NCBI GenBank assembly: GCA_021810175.1
Contig: JAJZJJ010000011.1
Location: forward strand, 1 to 16,148
DNA: 16,148 bases
Source: Acidobacteriota bacterium
GTDB taxonomy: Bacteria; Acidobacteriota; Terriglobia; Terriglobales; Acidobacteriaceae
Reading direction: 5' to 3'
The position numbers were made by a program, and so were the translations under genes. Below the pieces are notes generated by a model. It was not told the DNA's origin. It did not search any database and was given only the letters and a program-made list of their open reading frames with translations. Positions 5,056 to 13,209 of this stretch are shown here, in pieces. Positions within the stretch are counted from its first letter, which is position 1; every line of letters starts with the position of its first letter.

Positions 5056-5061
5056 TACAAT
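5056..5061 (+). promoter_or_regulatory. Putative -10 box for a leaderless mRNA of the transthyretin-like gene
   Basis: TACAAT lies 7 nt before the ATG at 5069, and no Shine-Dalgarno precedes that ATG. This spacing would put the transcription start on or beside the start codon. The -35 region is weak. The same arrangement recurs at thiG, tmk and holB. Confidence 0.5.
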
Positions 5062-5068
5062 TCCGTCT

Positions 5069-5581
5069 ATGGCAAACGCCTTTCGTTTTCGCCGCATCCT
5101 TCCGCTGGTCGTGCTGCTTCTGCTTCCGACCGGCCTCATGGCGAACTGGTGGCACGGCAGCAGCCATCCCCGCGGCCGCAAGTACAAACCACCACCGCCC
5201 ACGGCTAAGATCACCGTCACCGTCATGAGCGAGCAGTTTCACAAGCCCGTCAACGACGCACACGTCATCTTCCACAGCACCCGCGACAACCGCCCCGATG
5301 GCTTCATGGAAATGACCACCGACCGTCAGGGCAAGGCCGTGATCACCGTCATCCCCGTCGGCGACACCCTCGTCTTGCAGGTCATCGGAAATGACTACCA
5401 GACCTTCGGCCAGGTCTACAAGATCGATAAGCGCACAAAAAGCATCACCGTCATGCTGCTGCCGCCGCAGGCCCAGTTCTCTGACTACCGCAACGCGCCC
5501 ACCGGCCAGATCGGCGACGGCGGAAAGGGAACTACCAAGCCGCAGCAGAACAACAACGGTTCTTCCCAGAAGAAGCACTAG
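5069..5581 (+). CDS. Small secreted protein with transthyretin/carboxypeptidase-regulatory-like domain
   Basis: A 170-residue protein of unknown specific function. Residues 1-25 form a signal peptide: basic FRFRR, hydrophobic [10 protein letters not shown], likely cleavage after LMA. Residues 46-132 read as alternating beta strands with the typical pattern of a carboxypeptidase-regulatory or transthyretin-like sandwich: KITVTV, V-N-D-A-H-V near 61-66, a T-D-R-Q-G-K-A turn at 84-90, a V-I-P-V-G-D-T-L stretch, then [10 protein letters not shown]. The tail from 133 is hydrophilic, Gln/Asn/Lys-rich and has no cysteines. It is probably a periplasmic or outer-surface accessory protein that presents or binds something, which is inference from the fold. 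Start: only ATG consistent with the signal peptide, preceded by TACAAT and no Shine-Dalgarno. A strong terminator follows the stop. Confidence 0.8.
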
Positions 5582-5599
5582 CTTCTCTCGTTCCACCCG

Positions 5600-5632
5600 A
5601 AAGCCTCCGGTCCGCCGGAGGCTTTTCTCTTT
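5600..5632 (+). terminator. Rho-independent terminator between the transthyretin-like gene and thiG
   Basis: AAGCCTCCGG (5601-5610) pairs perfectly with CCGGAGGCTT (5615-5624) over a TCCG loop, extended by A5600-T5625. It is followed by a TTCTCTTTTC T-rich tract. It starts about 20 nt after the stop and isolates the upstream gene from thiG. Confidence 0.87.
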
Positions 5633-5672
5633 TCCTCCCCATCCTCGAAAATCTCCACTCATCCCTTCGGCT

Positions 5673-5678
5673 TACAAT
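5673..5678 (+). promoter_or_regulatory. Putative -10 box for leaderless thiG mRNA
   Basis: TACAAT (in CTTACAAT) ends 7 nt before the thiG ATG at 5686, with no Shine-Dalgarno between. It sits just after the terminator, so thiG must be started from here or by read-through. No good -35 hexamer is visible. The short distance leaves no room for a TPP riboswitch. Confidence 0.5.
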
Positions 5679-5685
5679 CAGACTC

Positions 5686-6456
5686 ATGGAACCCTTGGTC
5701 ATCGCCGGGCGGGCATTCCAGTCCCGCCTCATCGTCGGCACCGGTAAATACAAGGACGGCCCGGAAACGCAGCGCGCCATCGAAGCCTCTGGCGCCGAAA
5801 TGGTCACCGTTGCCGTCCGTCGCGTCAACCTCGACCGCTCAAAGGAATCGCTGCTCGACTTCATCGATCCCCAGCGCTACTTCCTGCTTCCCAACACCGC
5901 CGGCTGCTACACCGCCGAGGACGCCATCCGCGCCGCGCGTCTCGGCCGCGAAGTCGGCCTCTCTGACTGGGTCAAAATCGAAGTCATCGGCGACCAGGCC
6001 ACGCTCTACCCCGATGTCCAGGCCACTCTTGAGGCTACCCGCACATTGGTGAAGGAAGGCTTTACAGTTCTCCCGTATACCTCTGATGATGTTGTATTTG
6101 CGAAACGCCTCATCGATGCCGGGGCCTCCGCCGTCATGCCCCTCGCCGCACCCATCGGCTCCGGACTCGGCATCCAGAATCGCGCCACCCTCGCCATCCT
6201 CCGCGAAATGATCACCGAGGTCCCCCTCGTCGTCGACGCCGGCGTAGGTACCGCCTCTGACGCCGCCCTGGCCATGGAAATGGGCGCCGACGGCGTCCTC
6301 ATGAACACCGCCATCGCCGCCGCCGCTAACCCCGTCCTCATGGCCGAAGCCATGCAGCATGCCGTCCTCGCCGGACGCGAAGCCTACATCGCAGGGCGCA
6401 TGCCGCGCAAACTCTACGCTACCGCCAGCTCGCCGCTCGAAGGGATCTCCCGATAG
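5686..6456 (+). CDS. thiG: Thiazole synthase ThiG
   Basis: Cytoplasmic TIM-barrel enzyme that condenses 1-deoxy-D-xylulose 5-phosphate, dehydroglycine and the ThiS thiocarboxylate sulfur into the thiazole phosphate of thiamine. The 256-residue length is normal. Visible signatures: the opening [19 protein letters not shown], an [13 protein letters not shown] stretch at about 68-80, the Schiff-base lysine K97 in VKIEVIGD, the [12 protein letters not shown] phosphate loop, and [30 protein letters not shown]. The C-terminus [11 protein letters not shown] is family-typical. No thiS, thiC, thiE, thiF or thiO gene is nearby, so its partners lie elsewhere. ruvC starts 22 nt downstream, so the two probably share an mRNA. 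The start is fixed by family alignment and preceded by a TACAAT box rather than a Shine-Dalgarno. Confidence 0.96.
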
Positions 6457-6478
6457 CGGCGCGCTGCTTCGGTGATTT

Positions 6479-7015
6479 ATGCGCGTCTTCGGCATCGATT
6501 GCGGCTCTGAAACGACCGGCTACGGCGTGGTTGAAACTCTCCACTCCTCCGGCCGCGCCGGCCACTCCCACGATCTCGCCTCCATCGCCTTCGGCGGCAT
6601 CTCCCCGCCCAAAAAACTCGCGCTCCCCGCGCGCCTCGCCTTCGTCCACTCGCGCCTTGAAACCCTCCTCGCCGAGCACCAGCCCGATATCGTCGCCGTC
6701 GAAGAGGTCTTCTACTCCGTCAACGCCAAATCTGCCCTCAAGCTCGGCCACGTCCGCGGCATCGCCCTGCTTGCCATCGCCAACGCCGGCCTGCCCCTCG
6801 CCGAATACGCCCCGCTCACCATCAAATCCACCGTCACCGGCTACGGACTCGCCCAGAAGGAGCAGGTTCAGTTCATGGTCGCCCGCCTTCTCAATCTTCC
6901 CGAACCGCCCCAGCCCGCCGACGCCGCCGACGCTCTCGCCATCGCCATTTGCCACATTCGCCACGCGCAAACCCTCGCCGCGCAGTTGCCCGCGCGCCCC
7001 GCTGCACCGAAATGA
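6479..7015 (+). CDS. ruvC: Crossover junction endodeoxyribonuclease RuvC
   Basis: Dimeric Holliday-junction resolvase that cuts four-way junctions with RuvAB during recombination repair. The 178-residue protein has the RNase H-like fold signature: FGIDCGSETTGYGVV with catalytic D7, AVEEVFYSVNAKSALKLG with catalytic E75, an EYAPLTIKSTVTGYG-x-A-x-K loop, and DAADALAIAICH with D148 and D151. All four acidic residues are present, so it should be active. The last 20 residues are a variable Ala/Pro-rich tail. The gene lies 22 nt after thiG with a poor Shine-Dalgarno. ruvA and ruvB, often next to it, are not in the window. Confidence 0.96.
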   Translation: MRVFGIDCGSETTGYGVVETLHSSGRAGHSHDLASIAFGGISPPKKLALPARLAFVHSRLETLLAEHQPDIVAVEEVFYSVNAKSALKLGHVRGIALLAIANAGLPLAEYAPLTIKSTVTGYGLAQKEQVQFMVARLLNLPEPPQPADAADALAIAICHIRHAQTLAAQLPARPAAPK

Positions 7016-7076
7016 CGGCAAAGTAACGCAACCAACCGCCACCGTCGCGCGTTTCTATATGTAGAGGCACACCAGC

Positions 7077-7084
7077 AAGGAGGG
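7077..7084 (+). promoter_or_regulatory. Strong Shine-Dalgarno for the FecR-domain gene
   Basis: AAGGAGGG with a 7-nt spacer before the ATG at 7092 is nearly a perfect anti-16S match and the strongest ribosome site in the window. It fixes the start upstream of a second in-frame ATG at 7146. A TATATG box at 7056-7061 may be a -10 element. Confidence 0.8.
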
Positions 7085-7091
7085 AGTCGCC

Positions 7092-8774
7092 ATGCAGCAC
7101 AATACCCATTGCCATTCGTTCCGCTTTTCCATTCGCGGATTTTCTATGGTGGTCGCTGCACTGGGCCTGCTTCTCCTGCCCGCGCTGCCGCTGCGCGCAC
7201 AAACCAGCACATCGTCTTACGACCAGTCGCAGGCCATTCCGCCCGCGCCGCCGCCCGACGCCGCCGTCACCCAGCGCAACCTGCGCCTCAGCGACGTTCA
7301 CGGCGACGTCAAGGTCTATAGCGGCGACCTGCTCGCCTTTCCGCAGGCCTTCGTCAATATGCCGCTGGTCCAGGGCATGCGCATCGTCGCCGGCGATTCG
7401 GGCCGCGCGGAAATCCAGTTTGCCGATGGCAGCGTCGCTCGCATCGCCCCCAACAGCTCGCTGCTCATCGCCCGCCTCGGCAGCACCAACGACGGCATCC
7501 TCAACAGCCGCCTCGAAGCCCTCACCGGCCTCACCTATTACGAGTTCAACGGCGAAGTCGGCAATCAGTACACCCTCAGCGTCGGACCGGAAACCATCGT
7601 CCCCTCCGGCAACGCTGTCATCCGCGTCGACATGGACAACACCCCCTATCAGGTCGCGGATATGGAGGGCGGTCTCCAGATTCTCCGCGGCAACAATCTC
7701 ATCGTCTCCCTCCAGTCCGGCCAGAGCGTCTCCTTCGATCCCTCCGACCCTCAGATGTACCAGCTCAGCGATTCCATCCCGCCCAACTCCTGGGATCAGT
7801 GGAACTCCAACCGCGATGCCGACCTCGCCCAGCTCGCCTCCAACGCCAATCAGTCCTCTTCCAGCACCAATTCCGCCTGGAACGAGCTCAACTATTACGG
7901 TGACTGGTACAACGTTCCCGGCTACGGCGAGGGCTGGGCGCCCGCCGGCGTCGGTCAGAACTGGGACCCCTACGGCTACGGCTGGTGGGGTTACTATCCT
8001 TGGGGCTACACCTGGATCTCCGGCTATCCCTGGGGCTGGTGGCCCTATCACTGCGGCTATTGGAACTGGTTCAGCGGCAACGGCTGGATGTGGTTCCCCG
8101 GCGGCTGCGGATGGGGCGGCTTCGGCGGCGGCTGGTATCCCATGGCATACATCCAGTCCGCTCCGCCGCATTACCGCAGGCTCATTCGCCCGGCTCGCAC
8201 CGCTCACGGACCCGGGCGCCGCGTCCCGCGCCTCTATCCGGTCGACCGCGGCAATCAGTTCTCCCGGGGCTTCCGCTCCTTTGGCGGAGCTAAGCCCTCG
8301 CCCCGCACCTTCAACATCGACGGCCAGAACCTCACGCCCGTACAGGCAGCCCTGCCCACCCTCCAGTTCGCGCCCGTTGGCGGAGGTGGCTACACCTCCA
8401 CCGCCGCAGCCGCGCATCCCGGCGGAGCACCCAACCGCGTCGGCGGAAGCGTACCCGTCCTCCGCGCTCCTTACCGCGTCGGTGCTGGCAGTCCCAACTC
8501 TGGCGGAAACCGCCCCAGCGGCGGCTCTCGCTTCGGCTCCAGCCCGCGCCACGCCCCGTTCTTCCGTCCCGGCAACAGCGGCCAGCGTCCGAACTCCGCT
8601 CCCCGCAACGGCCCGGTCTTCCACCCGGCTCCACGGCCAAATTCCGGCCCGCGTCCCACCCCGAATCGTGGACCTGTCTTCCGCCCCGCTCCTCGACCCG
8701 CGCCCATGCCGCATCCCACCTTCCACCCGATGCCGCACCCGTCCGCTCCGCATCCCACCGGCCGTCCACACTAA
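7092..8774 (+). CDS. Secreted FecR-domain protein with Trp/Gly-rich DUF6600-like segment and Pro-rich tail
   Basis: A 560-residue exported protein of unknown function. Residues 1-37 form a long signal peptide (basic N-region to R16, hydrophobic VVAALGLLLLPALPL, cleavage probably after LRA). Residues about 66-215 are a FecR-like beta domain: LSDVHGDVKVYSG, QGMRIVAGDSGRAEIQFADGS near 94-114, then R-I-A-P-N-S. Unlike classic FecR anti-sigma factors it has no N-terminal cytoplasmic domain or later membrane helix, and no ECF sigma gene is nearby, so a signalling role is doubtful. Residues about 268-350 are strikingly rich in Trp, Gly and Tyr with repeated PWG/GYW units, resembling DUF6600. From 355 to the end it is Pro/Arg/Ser/His low complexity with repeated PAPRP-like motifs, possibly a disordered wall- or polymer-contacting tail. 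It may share transcription with thiG-ruvC (76-nt gap) but has its own ribosome site. Confidence 0.85.
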   Translation: MQHNTHCHSFRFSIRGFSMVVAALGLLLLPALPLRAQTSTSSYDQSQAIPPAPPPDAAVTQRNLRLSDVHGDVKVYSGDLLAFPQAFVNMPLVQGMRIVAGDSGRAEIQFADGSVARIAPNSSLLIARLGSTNDGILNSRLEALTGLTYYEFNGEVGNQYTLSVGPETIVPSGNAVIRVDMDNTPYQVADMEGGLQILRGNNLIVSLQSGQSVSFDPSDPQMYQLSDSIPPNSWDQWNSNRDADLAQLASNANQSSSSTNSAWNELNYYGDWYNVPGYGEGWAPAGVGQNWDPYGYGWWGYYPWGYTWISGYPWGWWPYHCGYWNWFSGNGWMWFPGGCGWGGFGGGWYPMAYIQSAPPHYRRLIRPARTAHGPGRRVPRLYPVDRGNQFSRGFRSFGGAKPSPRTFNIDGQNLTPVQAALPTLQFAPVGGGGYTSTAAAAHPGGAPNRVGGSVPVLRAPYRVGAGSPNSGGNRPSGGSRFGSSPRHAPFFRPGNSGQRPNSAPRNGPVFHPAPRPNSGPRPTPNRGPVFRPAPRPAPMPHPTFHPMPHPSAPHPTGRPH

Positions 8775-8819
8775 TCTGCCGGGCAACTTCCAACTGCCCA
8801 TCCCGGAAACACCGCGGGT

Positions 8820-8862
8820 GCCCACACTTTCTTGCCGAATTTTTTGGAAAGAAAGTGTGGGC
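8820..8862 (+). terminator. 14-bp perfect inverted repeat after the FecR-domain gene
   Basis: GCCCACACTTTCTT (8820-8833) and AAGAAAGTGTGGGC (8849-8862) are perfectly complementary around a 15-nt loop containing a T6 run. It starts 46 nt after the stop of the FecR gene. There is no T-run after the stem on the + strand. It may be a terminator or bidirectional mRNA end. It also resembles GGGTGCCC-type interspersed hairpins that I recall from acidobacterial intergenic regions; that comparison is from memory and unverified. Confidence 0.55.
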
Positions 8863-8961
8863 CGTATCAGCCAAAGACCGACCCACTCCGCGCTGTTGAT
8901 GCATCACTCAGTTCTCCCCGCTTGATGCAGCCACCTTGCCGGGAATTACCCCCTAATTCGC

Positions 8962-9024
8962 TACCATAGAAATAGGGAACAAATCGCCACGGGGCAGGCC
9001 GCAGGAGCCTGCCCCGATCCGTTT
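8962..9024 (+). ncRNA. Possible small RNA or terminator hairpin in the convergent intergenic region
   Basis: CGGGGCAGGC (8990-8999) pairs perfectly with GCCTGCCCCG (9007-9016) over a 7-nt loop, followed by ATCCGTTTT. A TACCAT box (8962-8967) lies at a distance that would start a transcript near 8974, giving an RNA of about 50 nt ending in this hairpin. With no protein frame here, an sRNA is possible. The alternative is a second terminator for the FecR gene. Confidence 0.25.
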
Positions 9025-9050
9025 TCCGCACTATAACGCCGCCCGCAACC

Positions 9051-9110
9051 TTACGAAAAAGTCGTAGAACTATACGATTCCAATCGTGTAAACCGTAGAA
9101 AATCGTAGCA
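9051..9110. other. AT-richer cluster of CGTA motifs with two small hairpins
   Basis: Within 60 bases CGTA or its complement TACG occurs five times: TACGA at 9052 with TCGTA at 9062, TACGATT at 9073 facing AATCGT at 9082, and CGTAGAA/CGTAGCA at 9094 and 9104. Two short stem-loops result. The base composition is clearly lower in GC than the flanks. It contains no gene I can support and could be a protein-binding site cluster. The rest of the 8775-9279 gap holds only the hairpins and the tandem repeat listed separately, plus an AAAGGAG ribosome-site-like string at 9139-9145 with no start codon at a usable distance. Confidence 0.35.
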
Positions 9111-9244
9111 TTACCCGGCGCTGTAAAGTATATGATCCAAAGGAGTTACAAGCCTAACGCCCCAGTAACATCATGATTCCATGGGACTTAACGGACACTG
9201 CTCAACAGCTGAAAATCGCAGGGTAGGAAAGCGCTGGGAGCGAA

Positions 9245-9272
9245 CAACTGGGGACTGACAACTGTGGACTGA
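9245..9272. repeat. Two tandem 14-bp units with heptad character
   Basis: CAACTGGGGACTGA (9245-9258) is followed directly by CAACTGTGGACTGA (9259-9272), one mismatch. Each unit is itself two related heptamers (CAACTGG/GGACTGA). It lies 8 bases beyond the stop codon of the Hfq-like gene and looks like a short tandem intergenic repeat of the kind that spreads through genomes. Confidence 0.65.
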
Positions 9273-9279
9273 ATACGGG

Positions 9280-9762
9280 CTACACCAGCGTCATTGGTCC
9301 GTCGCCGTTCCGCTCCGAGGCCTTGAACAGGTACTTGATCGCAGACTTGTAAATCAGCACCCGCCCGTTGTTCCGCACCTTGATGCAGTTTCGGTCGTAC
9401 CACTCGATCACGCCCTCGATCTGCCCACCGTCTTCCAGCACAAACACCATTTGTGTCTGGGACTGAATCTGCTTTTGGAAATAGAACGCTTCGGCATGCG
9501 AGGTATCGTGAGCCGCCGCCGCACCTTGGGTCAGTTCGCGCCGCGTCAGAATCCCCCGGAAGCCCCTGCGCTGAGTGTCTCGATACGCGGCGGCATTGTC
9601 TGGCAGCACCGGGCGAATCAGTTTGCGCTGGCTTGCAAAGACCGCGTCAATCTCTTCTACCTTGCTTTGGGCGTCTTCGCCGCGCACTTCTGGCATCGAA
9701 TCGCGCCCCTTCCCGGCCTTTGCCGAGATCGGGATAGGCGACATGCGTGGAGTCTTGGGCAT
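9280..9762 (-). CDS. hfq: Hfq-like RNA chaperone with long N-terminal extension
   Basis: A Sm-fold protein expected to form a ring and bind small RNAs and mRNA tails. Residues about 91-148 of 160 carry the Sm domain: Sm1-like MVFVLEDGGQIEGVIEWYDRNCIKV (105-129) and Sm2-like R-V-L-I-YKSAI at 134-142, aligning with YKHAI of E. coli Hfq. Differences are notable: the proximal-face His is Ser, the arginine-rich rim patch (RRER type) is absent, replaced by FQKQIQSQTQ, and about 90 basic, low-complexity residues precede the domain. The start is uncertain: ATG 9762 has a weak GAGAAG site, while ATG 9696 (residue 23) has GGAAGGGG 9 nt upstream. It is the last gene of the minus-strand run, after holB. 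It could be an Hfq paralogue rather than the main Hfq. Confidence 0.8.
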   Translation of the reverse strand: MPKTPRMSPIPISAKAGKGRDSMPEVRGEDAQSKVEEIDAVFASQRKLIRPVLPDNAAAYRDTQRRGFRGILTRRELTQGAAAAHDTSHAEAFYFQKQIQSQTQMVFVLEDGGQIEGVIEWYDRNCIKVRNNGRVLIYKSAIKYLFKASERNGDGPMTLV

Positions 9763-9788
9763 ACTCAGCTTCTCAAAGGATGTTGCCG

Positions 9789-9968
9789 TTAGGATGCGGC
9801 AGCCCTGTCCGGGGCTGCATTCATGCTTTGGAGGACTGCTCGTATCCTATCGCGACTCTTGGCTTTCCCGGCAAAAAGCCGCGCTGCTGAGTATGAGAAA
9901 AGTAACGTGTGCGTGCCCTCAGGGAAACGCGCACTCTCCGGCGCACCGCTGTACACATCCGGCAGCAT
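9789..9968 (-). CDS. Possible 59-residue small protein between holB and the Hfq-like gene
   Basis: Starting 11 nt after the holB stop, an ATG at 9968 is preceded by AAGGCGG with a 4-nt spacer, whose first bases touch the holB stop codon, as in translational coupling. The frame runs 59 codons (MLPDVYSGAPESARFPEG start) to TAA, ending 26 nt before the Hfq-like ATG. Third-position GC is high in the first third and falls later, so coding is not certain. No family recognised and no signal peptide. It may equally be untranslated spacer. Confidence 0.3.
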   Translation of the reverse strand: MLPDVYSGAPESARFPEGTHTLLFSYSAARLFAGKAKSRDRIRAVLQSMNAAPDRAAAS

Positions 9969-9979
9969 CAACCCGCCTT

Positions 9980-11086
9980 CTACCCCCGCGCCGCACCCTC
10001 CAGCTCGGTGGCAAACGCATCCAGCGACACGTTGCGGAGCAGATTGCGCCGCATGCCCGACTCCACCGCCTGCAAACCCCGCGCCGCGCGCTCCAGCCAT
10101 TCGAGCGTCACCTGCCCGGCCATCACGTCCAGCTCGCGCTCCAGGTCAATGTTACGAATCAGCCCGCTCGCACCCGAAACCACCATTAGCAGGTCTTCCA
10201 GCAGCGAACGCATCGCCTTGATCAGCGCCACCGTCTTCTGCTGGCCCTCCGCGCCCGCCCGGTACGTCTCCGTCATCCGGAACAGCGCGCTGTGATCCGC
10301 CGCCTGCAACGCGTTCCGCAGCAGCACCAGCGCATCCGTTCGGGCCGAGAGATAGCCCGGCAGGTCAAATCCCAGCGCGCGCCCCACGGCGCCCTCGGCC
10401 AGCCGCGCCACCAGCGCCCGCTCCTTCGGCTTCAGGTCGTTCCGGCGCGAGGCCAGCAGCGGCTCAATCTCTTCTGTCGGAATCGCCCCCAGCCGCACCA
10501 GGCTCGTCCGTGACCGGATCGTTGGCAGCAGCTCGCCCGGATTCTCCGCCGTCAGCACGATCAGCGCATACGGCGGCGGCTCCTCCAGCACCTTCAGCAG
10601 CGAGTTCGCCGCCTCCTTCATGAACGATGCGCTGGTGAACACAAACACTGACCGCCGCGCCTCCGCCGGCGTCCGCTGCACCTCCCGGATCATCGTCCGC
10701 ACCTGTCCCATCTTGATCAGCAGCTGGGGCGGATCGGGCGGAATCACCAGTACGCTCGGGTGCGTCTGGACCAGGATTCGCGTCTCCTTCTTGTCGACCT
10801 CGCGCAGCTCCTCGTGCGCTGCAATCGCCTCGGCCACGCGGGCATCCAGGTCGAGCGCCTGCCCGATGCGCTCGCAGTTCGCGCACCGCCCGCAGAAGTC
10901 AGGCAGCCCGTCTGTCTGCGGCTGCTCCAGGCAGTTCACCGCCTGGGCCAGCATTACCGCCAGTGTGTATTTGCCCGCTCCGCGCGGCCCCGCCAGCAGC
11001 AGCGAATGAGGCAGACGTCCCGCCGCAATCGCTTCGCGCAGGTGACGCACCGCCGTCTCATTGCCGATGAAGTCGCTGAAGCCCAC
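9980..11086 (-). CDS. holB: DNA polymerase III delta' clamp-loader subunit
   Basis: AAA+-type subunit of the clamp loader that helps place the beta sliding clamp on primed DNA. The 368-residue protein shows MGFSDFIGNETAVRHL, then LPHSLLLAGPRGAGKYT with a P-loop (33-41), a four-cysteine zinc module (C52, C65, C68, C71), NSLLKVLEEPP (161-171) and TIRSRT (189-194). In most relatives the last motif is SRC, and delta' itself usually does not hydrolyse ATP. An insertion of about 30 residues (roughly 76-108) lies between the zinc module and the THPSV segment, compared with the E. coli protein. Start is GTG at 11086, with no Shine-Dalgarno but a TACCCT box 6 nt upstream. It follows the P450 gene by 25 nt. 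DnaX (gamma/tau) would be a close relative, but length and the delta'-type module favour HolB. Confidence 0.88.
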   Translation of the reverse strand: MGFSDFIGNETAVRHLREAIAAGRLPHSLLLAGPRGAGKYTLAVMLAQAVNCLEQPQTDGLPDFCGRCANCERIGQALDLDARVAEAIAAHEELREVDKKETRILVQTHPSVLVIPPDPPQLLIKMGQVRTMIREVQRTPAEARRSVFVFTSASFMKEAANSLLKVLEEPPPYALIVLTAENPGELLPTIRSRTSLVRLGAIPTEEIEPLLASRRNDLKPKERALVARLAEGAVGRALGFDLPGYLSARTDALVLLRNALQAADHSALFRMTETYRAGAEGQQKTVALIKAMRSLLEDLLMVVSGASGLIRNIDLERELDVMAGQVTLEWLERAARGLQAVESGMRRNLLRNVSLDAFATELEGAARG

Positions 11087-11092
11087 GCGTAC

Positions 11093-11098
11093 AGGGTA
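11093..11098 (-). promoter_or_regulatory. Putative extended -10 box for leaderless holB mRNA
   Basis: Read on the minus strand, TTTGCTACCCT ends 6 nt before the holB GTG. It has the TGn extension of extended -10 promoters and closely matches the tmk box (TTTGTTACACT). The only purine-rich string, GAGGTAGG, is too far away to serve as ribosome site. Confidence 0.45.
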
Positions 11099-11111
11099 GC
11101 AAACGCGGAGC

Positions 11112-12506
11112 CTACCTCAGTTCCGGGATCATCCGGATCTCAGGCTTCGGCCGCAGTGTGATCTTGGGCTGCAACCCAATCGTCTGCCCCGGAACCAGCC
11201 GCAGCCGCCACTTCTGCGCCAGCGTTGCCAGCACCAGCACGCCCTCCATCCACGCAAACCCCTCGCCGATGCACTGTCTGCCGCCCGCTCCAAAAGGGAA
11301 GTAGACGAACTTCGACCGTCCTGCTTTCGCCTCCGGCGTAAACCGCTCCGGGCGGAACTTGAGCGGCTCCGGCCAGAACTCGGCGTTCCGTTGGATCATG
11401 TACTGGCTGAAGAACACATAACTCCCCGCCGGCAGCAGATAGGGCCCCAGCTCGATATCTTCTGTCGCCTGCCGCCCCATCGCCCACGCCGGCGGATACA
11501 GTCGCATCGACTCCGCCAGCACCATCTCCGTGTAACGAAGCTGAGGCAGATCCTCAATCGTCGGTGTGCGGCCCGCCAGCACGCGATCGAGTTCCTCGTG
11601 CATCCGCGCCTCCGCCTCCGGATTCTGCGCCAGCAGGTACCACGTCCACGTCAGCGCCGTCGCCACGGTTTCGTAGCCGGCCAGAAAGATCGTCAGCACC
11701 TCGTCGCGCACCTGCTCATCCGTCATGCCGGAGCGGTCATCCTCATCGTCCCGCGAGCGCAGTAGCATCGAAAGCAGATCCCCGCGATCCACTCCATCCG
11801 CCCGGTGCTCGGCAATGATCCGGTTCACCACCGCGTCCAGCCGCTTCCGCGCCCGGCGAAAGCGCATCAGCCCAGGAATCGGCCAGTGGAGATAGGCTTC
11901 CGCACGGGGCAGCGCCACCAGGAAGTGATAGAGGCCCATGATCGCATTGACCTCATCGTTGATCTGCCTCACGTCCGCGGTGACGTCCGTGTTCAGCAGC
12001 GTCCGCGCCACAATTTGCAGCGCCACCCGCATCATCTCGGCCAGCGCGCCTATCTCCTTGCCGGACTGCCACTCCTCGCGCATCGCCAGCGCGCGTTCCA
12101 CCATCACCGCCCCGTAGGCTTGTATGCGTTGCCGATGAAACGCCGGTGCCACGATTCGCCGTTGCCGCCTGTGAAACTCGCCGTCGCTGGTGATCAACCC
12201 ATTTCCCAGCAGGATCTTCATCCGCTGCTGCGTCCGCTCTTTAATGAACTTGTCTGCCTGGGTGATCAGGATCTCCCGGACAAACTCCGGCTCCTGCACC
12301 ACGAAGACATCACTCGTCGCGATGCGGTAATGTGCCATCGAACCGAATCTCCGCTGCAGGTACTCAAACAGCTTGATCGGATCGCTGGGGTTGAAGAACT
12401 TCCGCGTGATATAGAAGGGCAGATTGAGCTTCAGCCCCGGCGGCAGGCGGTATTTGCCGCGGGGAACAATGGGGAACTCTTTTCGAGTTTGTATCGTGGT
12501 GGCCAT
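11112..12506 (-). CDS. Cytochrome P450
   Basis: Haem-thiolate monooxygenase of 464 residues; substrate unknown. All core motifs are present: helix-C-like GEFHRRQRR near 109-117, I-helix AGYETVA at 276-282 (acid-Thr pair E-T present), K-helix ESMR at 332-335 (ExxR), the FRPERF meander at 384-389, and the haem loop FPFGAGGRQCIGEG with Cys412 as ligand. No membrane anchor is evident, so it is a soluble bacterial type needing ferredoxin or flavodoxin partners not encoded here. Start at 12506 is preferred: AGGAAG lies 7 nt upstream, and the longer frame from 12554 would overlap tmk and lacks a site. It sits between tmk and holB, an odd place for a P450. Confidence 0.95.
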   Translation of the reverse strand: MATTIQTRKEFPIVPRGKYRLPPGLKLNLPFYITRKFFNPSDPIKLFEYLQRRFGSMAHYRIATSDVFVVQEPEFVREILITQADKFIKERTQQRMKILLGNGLITSDGEFHRRQRRIVAPAFHRQRIQAYGAVMVERALAMREEWQSGKEIGALAEMMRVALQIVARTLLNTDVTADVRQINDEVNAIMGLYHFLVALPRAEAYLHWPIPGLMRFRRARKRLDAVVNRIIAEHRADGVDRGDLLSMLLRSRDDEDDRSGMTDEQVRDEVLTIFLAGYETVATALTWTWYLLAQNPEAEARMHEELDRVLAGRTPTIEDLPQLRYTEMVLAESMRLYPPAWAMGRQATEDIELGPYLLPAGSYVFFSQYMIQRNAEFWPEPLKFRPERFTPEAKAGRSKFVYFPFGAGGRQCIGEGFAWMEGVLVLATLAQKWRLRLVPGQTIGLQPKITLRPKPEIRMIPELR

Positions 12507-12513
12507 GCGATAA

Positions 12514-12519
12514 CTTCCT
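12514..12519 (-). promoter_or_regulatory. Shine-Dalgarno site that decides the P450 start
   Basis: AGGAAG on the minus strand, 7 nt before the ATG at 12506, supports the 464-residue protein over the 480-residue reading that would begin inside tmk. Confidence 0.65.
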
Positions 12520-12537
12520 GAGGCACAGCCCGGGGAA

Positions 12538-13197
12538 TCATGCCCGATGCGCAAGCCTTGCTTCTACTATGCTTACGATGCGCTCGTGGATTCTCTCAAT
12601 CTCCTCATCGCTCTCGATTGCGACCACACGCAAAGGTTCCCGGCGCGCAATTTCACAATATTGATCGAAAACCCGGCGGTAAAAACTCTCATCCTCGCTC
12701 TCGAATCGTCCCTCGTCCTTCGCAGACTGCGTCACGGCGCGATGATTGCGACGCCGCGCTCGCTCCAGGGAGCGTCGGAAGTCAGGCAGCAGCAGCAGCG
12801 TCAGATCAGGATCCAGCCCGCCGCACATCACTTCGTGCAGTTGCCGCACAATCTCCGATCCGAGCTGGCGTCCACCCCCTTGATAGGCCTCGGTGGAATC
12901 CGTATAGCGGTCGCAAAGCACAATTTGTCCCGCATCGAGTGCGGGGCGGATGACTTCGGCGATGGACTGGGCACGGTCTGAGAACATCAGCCCAAGTTCG
13001 GCCATCGGCGACAGGGCTTCCGTGCGCGAGTCCAGCAGCAGGGCGCGGATTCGGTCGCCGATCCGGGTGCCGCCCGGCTGGCGTGTCACGAGGAACGGCT
13101 CGCCGCGCGCCTCGAGCCATTGCGCAAGCTTGCGAAGTTGCGTCGACTTGCCCGATCCGTCCAGCCCTTCAAAGGTAAGGAAAAAACCCTGTGGCAT
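12538..13197 (-). CDS. tmk: Thymidylate kinase
   Basis: Phosphorylates dTMP to dTDP with ATP for DNA precursor supply; cytoplasmic dimer. The 219 residues include the P-loop FEGLDGSGKST (9-19), the DR(Y/X) motif CDRYTDSTEAYQGGGR (95-110) and a LID region with RARRRNHRAV followed by FESED. The usual TREPGGT stretch reads TRQPGGT (38-44), an E-to-Q change in a well-kept motif. No Shine-Dalgarno precedes the ATG; a TGTTACACT extended -10 box ends 6 nt upstream instead. It ends 31 nt before the P450 start and follows argA by 42 nt, with its own likely promoter separating it from the arginine genes. Confidence 0.95.
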   Translation of the reverse strand: MPQGFFLTFEGLDGSGKSTQLRKLAQWLEARGEPFLVTRQPGGTRIGDRIRALLLDSRTEALSPMAELGLMFSDRAQSIAEVIRPALDAGQIVLCDRYTDSTEAYQGGGRQLGSEIVRQLHEVMCGGLDPDLTLLLLPDFRRSLERARRRNHRAVTQSAKDEGRFESEDESFYRRVFDQYCEIARREPLRVVAIESDEEIERIHERIVSIVEARLAHRA

Positions 13198-13203
13198 GGC
13201 CGG

Positions 13204-13209
13204 AGTGTA
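13204..13209 (-). promoter_or_regulatory. Putative extended -10 box for leaderless tmk mRNA
   Basis: On the minus strand TTTGTTACACT is followed by 6 nt (CCGGCC) and then the tmk ATG. A small GCCGG/CCGGC palindrome (13215-13226) with TTTGTT after it lies just upstream and might end transcripts coming from argA. Confidence 0.5.

Follow-up and report, generated by a model that had tools for sequence, protein, structure and literature searches.

The window analysed, a stretch of 16,148 nucleotides, carries four genes in which a hexamer of the form TANNNT lies shortly in front of the start codon. On the forward strand, TACAAT at 5056–5061 precedes by 7 nt the ATG of a gene for a 170-aa protein (5069–5581). 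This open reading frame lacks a Shine-Dalgarno (SD) sequence, owes its name, transthyretin-like, to an earlier note on this DNA, and gave no match in a Pfam search. A second TACAAT on the same strand (5673–5678) stands 7 nt before the ATG of thiG, thiazole synthase (5686–6456; PF05690, E 1.7e-108). On the reverse strand, TACACT (13204–13209) lies 6 nt before the ATG of tmk, thymidylate kinase (12538–13197; PF02223, E 1.6e-45), with an extended −10 TGN immediately 5′ of it, and TACCCT (11093–11098) lies 6 nt before the GTG of holB, DNA polymerase III delta prime (9980–11086; PF13177, E 9.6e-37). The start contexts read ttTACAAT-tccgtct-ATG for the transthyretin-like gene (5069, +), ctTACAAT-cagactc-ATG for thiG (5686, +), TTTGTTACACT-ccggcc-ATG for tmk (13197, −) and TTTGCTACCCT-gtacgc-GTG for holB (11086, −). 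On re-reading, all positions and spacings were exactly as the earlier note described them, and the TTTGYTACMCT said to be common to tmk and holB is seen directly in both. All four genes are located behind co-directional genes, at gaps of 105 nt (transthyretin-like), 104 nt (thiG), 42 nt (tmk) and 25 nt (holB), and a P450 gene separates tmk from holB in this genome.

In none of the four does the Shine-Dalgarno region match AAGGAGGTGA over 4 nt or more, in agreement with the claim that they are SD-less. A GGGGG run with a duplex energy of −5.9 is present 17–21 nt upstream of the transthyretin-like gene, 3 nt 5′ of the box, and was judged too distant for an SD role. Also as claimed, the FecR, P450, argA (GNAT/argA-like) and DUF2076 genes lack the box and have SD matches, of 7, 4, 7 and 5 nt, respectively; the values for P450 and DUF2076 refer to the ATGs at 12506 and 4124. 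For the DUF2076 gene the start is probably ATG 4124 and not ATG 4106: an SD-like GGAAGGAAAG precedes the former and the Pfam match starts at that residue, while the latter has no SD.

The boxes might be chance matches in front of genes that are simply SD-less and have ordinary leaders. The absence of an SD is unremarkable in itself, since an SD match of 4 nt is lacking in about half of the genes of this genome (305 of 593). The four boxes were moreover noticed post hoc in one window, and about 0.7% of genes match TANNNT randomly at any one spacing. The hexamer was counted in 800 kb outside the window, a fifth of the 4.17-Mb draft genome, with 581 genes. Gene starts in this sample and in those from the family and from other families were set by a simple caller using only a codon-usage score and the type of start codon, so that upstream signals could not bias them. 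Genes scoring <15 or lying <60 nt from the end of a piece were removed. Applied to relatives, the caller detects about 14 genes in 20 kb, so that some genes are missed.

TANNNT at 6–8 nt was found 36 times against 12.7 expected (P 6.5e-8). By spacing, the counts are 20 at 6 nt, 7 at 7 nt, 9 at 8 nt and 11 at 9 nt, with a background of about 4.2 per spacing elsewhere. Internal in-frame ATGs (n = 3818) exhibit no peak, the hexamer occurring at 0.26% of them at 6 nt and 0.34% at 7 nt. The earlier note had named a lack of genome-wide enrichment as the outcome that would speak against its proposal; in this fifth of the genome the enrichment is seen, and the peak argues against chance. The window itself has the box at 6–8 nt in 4 of 13 called genes against 35 of 581 elsewhere, with a binomial P of 0.006 for a window chosen post hoc. 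The excess amounts to about 4% of the sampled genes, which is a lower bound, since some cases escape a search for exact TANNNT with approximate start calls. In a sample of 20 genera of the family the peak is found again (20 observed, 6.3 expected, 275 genes, P 1e-5). In 20 genomes from other Acidobacteriota families the difference is not significant (11 observed, 6.7 expected, 284 genes, P 0.08).

The 35 box genes begin with ATG in 27 cases, GTG in 8 and TTG in none. Pfam matches among the 20 of them that were searched include uvrB, mutL, a MiaB-type radical SAM protein, ccmF, an FtsY-type SRP GTPase, LytB/IspH, ribulose-phosphate epimerase, response regulators and a Crp-type regulator, which are largely ordinary housekeeping functions. 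Only 2 of the 35 lie <20 nt behind a co-directional gene, as against 65 of 285 SD genes.

The special box proposed in the earlier note, TACNNT, stands as a description of the window, where all four boxes begin with TAC, but is too narrow as a general motif. The third base among the 35 box genes elsewhere in the genome is C in 13, A in 9, T in 7 and G in 6; since it is not fixed, the motif is TANNNT, a sigma70-type −10. Positions 4 and 5 are A/C-rich, T1, A2 and T6 being fixed by the definition of the search. A distinct TACNNT element, read by a dedicated regulator or alternative sigma factor and uniting the four genes, would account for the four TACs in the window and for the pattern common to tmk and holB. 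Such an element is hardly credible, given that C takes the third position in just those 13 of 35 genes, that boxes in orthologs read TATGAT, TATCAT and TAAACT (tmk) or TAGAAT and TAAAAT (thiG), and that the four genes have no common pathway. It was rejected on the variable third base.

The clearest further conservation near the box is the TG of the upstream TGN in the 27 box-bearing tmk orthologs (T 81%, G 89%). No shared −35 stands out among the 35 box genes of this genome. A T-rich patch lies 21–23 nt 5′ of the box in 12 transthyretin-like orthologs, which are few and related sequences. A pyrimidine at −1, to be expected if transcription begins on the purine of the codon, was weighed as separate evidence for the start position and dropped: across the whole set of box genes its enrichment is not significant (23 of 35, versus 83 of 147 genes with an SD of at least 5 nt; Fisher 0.35). 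It occurs in 16 of 20 genes at spacing 6, in 28 of 29 thiG orthologs and in 6 of 12 box-bearing holB orthologs.

In this genome an SD of at least 4 nt accompanies the box in 3 of 35 genes, as compared with about 50% of all genes (Fisher 2e-7), and the median anti-SD duplex energy is −1.7 for box genes versus −5.5 for the others (P 3.8e-8). Mutual exclusion is not found in the family sample of 20 genera, where 7 of 20 box genes also have an SD (Fisher 0.49). The anti-SD tail was searched for with two patterns and was not found in this genome, the patterns being positive in 9 and 7 of 41 family genomes. The tail is missing even in two one-contig genomes, and its absence here is therefore uninformative; a 16S gene that is lacking or masked may be the cause.

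A hexamer that occupies the place of the SD and mostly replaces it could also be a non-SD translation signal, such as an AT-rich contact of the ribosome or of S1, within a normal 5′ leader. However, the fixed letters match a −10, and at tmk they are joined by TGN. Conservation bears on this reading and on chance alike. For each gene 30 family loci were listed, with matches in 35–41 genomes; the ortholog start was taken as the codon nearest the aligned first residue, ATG being favoured, and a box was counted at 5–8 nt before it. Among the listed family orthologs, thiG has the box in 29 of 30, and in the one exception (L096) a TACAAT lies 6 nt before an upstream in-frame ATG. For tmk the box is found in 27 of 30, with 15 GTG and 12 ATG as start codons. 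holB has it in 12 of 30 and lacks it in 18. The transthyretin-like gene has it in 15 of 30 (12 of 21 plus 3 of 9) and lacks it in 15, many of these ortholog starts being uncertain because the match begins late. An SD-like match of at least 4 nt, with the box or replacing it, occurs in 3 of 30 listed loci for thiG, 4 of 30 for tmk and 9 of 30 for holB. The SD-led argH, taken as control, has the box in 0 and an SD in 25 of 29 listed family loci, L194 having been left out since it begins within the gene.

In named records, 76 of 80 thiG loci (the best 80 of 341) have the box at 5–8 nt. Judged by eye, one of the remaining four has TACAAT at 9 nt, and the other three have a TANNNT 6–7 nt before an in-frame upstream ATG. 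An SD-like match of at least 4 nt is present in 13 of the same best 80. The nearest thiG genes among the named records belong to 'Acidobacteria bacterium', Acidobacteriaceae bacterium, Silvibacterium and Acidobacterium, which marks the window genome as one of Acidobacteriaceae type. Deposited strains such as Acidipila rosea DSM 103428 and Edaphobacter modestus DSM 18101 are also among the named records. The family and named sets share some genomes, and their counts were not summed. Outside the family, thiG is mostly SD-led (SD in 20 of 26 rows, box in 3), which speaks against a translation signal.

The conservation of the box at a fixed spacing is striking for thiG and tmk and partial for holB and the transthyretin-like gene. 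For thiG and tmk it largely refutes chance; for holB or the transthyretin-like gene taken singly the evidence against chance is weaker, and the box may be a random match. With the genome-wide peak added, we regard chance as a very unlikely account of the boxes. In the own genome, uvrB (L011:110) and mutL (L026:8165) are likewise box-led and SD-less. The box precedes 8 of 29 other listed family orthologs of uvrB and 10 of 29 of mutL, mostly in nearer relatives (9 of 30 and 11 of 30 if the own genes, on which the choice was based, are counted in). Compared with thiG and tmk, this indicates that the box is a constant trait of some genes and comes and goes in others.

The distribution of the holB box follows the position of the gene. 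Of the 30 listed genomes, 13 have holB behind a co-directional tmk at a distance of no more than 700 nt, and all 13 lack the box. In the other 17, which include the window genome, holB is not close behind tmk, and the box is present in 12 (Fisher 8.7e-5). The 700-nt limit was chosen after the table had been seen; recomputed from the coordinates with other limits, the contrast gives P 3e-4 at 200 nt, 8e-4 at 900 nt and 0.06 at 2000 nt. The contrast is partly phylogenetic, that is, between clades: on a HolB tree three independent pairs fall on well-supported branches with none opposed, which is not significant. holB within 700 nt behind tmk is seen in 0 of 12 genomes of the window genome's own HolB clade. 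A box that is absent near tmk and present apart from it fits a private promoter. With holB close behind tmk the need for a translation signal would persist, yet the box is found in none of those genomes, and we consider a translation signal improbable as the function of the hexamer. The contrast between the two arrangements amounts to a natural experiment on the swap of SD-led for leaderless starts.

The four boxes are thus, with high probability, sigma70-type −10 elements that adjoin the open reading frames and give candidate leaderless mRNAs. The leaderless reading first put forward in the earlier note gains support from the enrichment, the avoidance of SD, the conservation in orthologs, the argH control and the dependence of the holB box on the distance from tmk. 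That the TANNNT motif is a promoter −10 is strongly supported, and the sigma factor that serves these promoters would be the housekeeping, sigma70-type one. The transcripts of the four genes are predicted to start very probably at the start codon or within about 2 nt of it. RNA polymerase would initiate 6–8 nt past the box, which corresponds to the first base of the start codon or up to about 2 nt before it; from the spacing we infer a start exactly on the codon. Ribosomes would then recognise the 5′-terminal AUG or GUG of the leaderless mRNA in place of a Shine-Dalgarno, a mode of translation proposed here by analogy with other bacteria. The thiG box, TACAAT, is near-consensus, and tmk has an extended −10 (TGN) that is conserved in the family. 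tmk and holB would have promoters of their own despite gaps of 42 and 25 nt to the co-directional genes upstream, and a longer read-through transcript could exist alongside the leaderless one.

The leaderless phenomenon is already known, and the four genes are very probably further instances of it. Zheng et al. 2011 (PMC3160421) characterised leaderless genes by a TANNNT about 12 bp upstream, in contrast to SD-led genes, and predicted such genes in 3 of 3 genomes of Acidobacteria, at a mean of 13.3% (9.7–19.4). This answers the doubt of the earlier note as to how well the lineage is described. The motif is the same here, and TANNNT plus 6–7 nt likewise places its first T about 12 bp from the start. 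The difference is that theirs is a prediction at the level of the phylum, made from three genomes; the available part of the paper does not treat these genes, the conservation of acidobacterial orthologs or this lineage. In Deinococcus-Thermus (PMC12340547), the ORF-adjoining −10 has been shown by experiment to be the promoter of leaderless genes. As here, TANNNT lies about 6–7 bp before the open reading frame, and TACACT, the tmk box, is the commonest form; the proportion there is about 30% of ORFs, whereas the excess here, counted in sequence with exact TANNNT at 6–8 nt, is about 4% of the sampled genes, a lower bound.

In Mycobacterium tuberculosis (PMC3898074), where starts were obtained by mapping of transcription start sites, 26% of the genes with a primary start are leaderless. 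TANNNT is centred 7–12 bp before 73% of primary starts with no −35 consensus, which is similar to the present genes, and a preference for purine starts with C the commonest base at −1 can be counted as a further likeness. TGN, by contrast, accompanies only 7% of TANNNT in M. tuberculosis and is conserved in the tmk orthologs here. For Acidobacteria, the available part of PMC10783764 contains only an SD histogram, and in that of PMC9581028 they are not named. No transcription-start map or leaderless study for Acidobacteria was found in the open-licence literature searched beyond the prediction of Zheng et al.

A broader proposal, for and against which we see even chances, concerns the Acidobacteriaceae as a family. 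The leaderless start may be fixed and gene-specific in housekeeping genes such as thiG and tmk, with GTG about as good as ATG, and an ORF-adjoining −10 may arise when a gene leaves its operon, as for holB, so that operon break-up would be coupled to a switch between SD-led and leaderless starts. Acidobacteriota are abundant soil bacteria. Leaderless genes, those with GTG included, should be allowed for in the annotation of starts, in promoter prediction and in expression tools for this group.

Other features of the window were also observed. A 160-aa Hfq-like protein is encoded on the reverse strand at 9280–9762; it has a long N-terminal extension, and its C-terminal domain matches PF21979 at residues 96–145 and PF17209 at residues 100–147. 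Between this gene and the FecR-like gene, an inverted repeat of 13 nt without mismatches (CCCACACTTTCTT...AAGAAAGTGTGGG) occupies 8821–8861; its loop contains a T run, and it is perhaps a terminator. Downstream of thiG, ruvC begins after a gap of 22 nt (6457–6478) and may be carried on the thiG transcript; its SD match, of GGTGA type, covers 5 nt.
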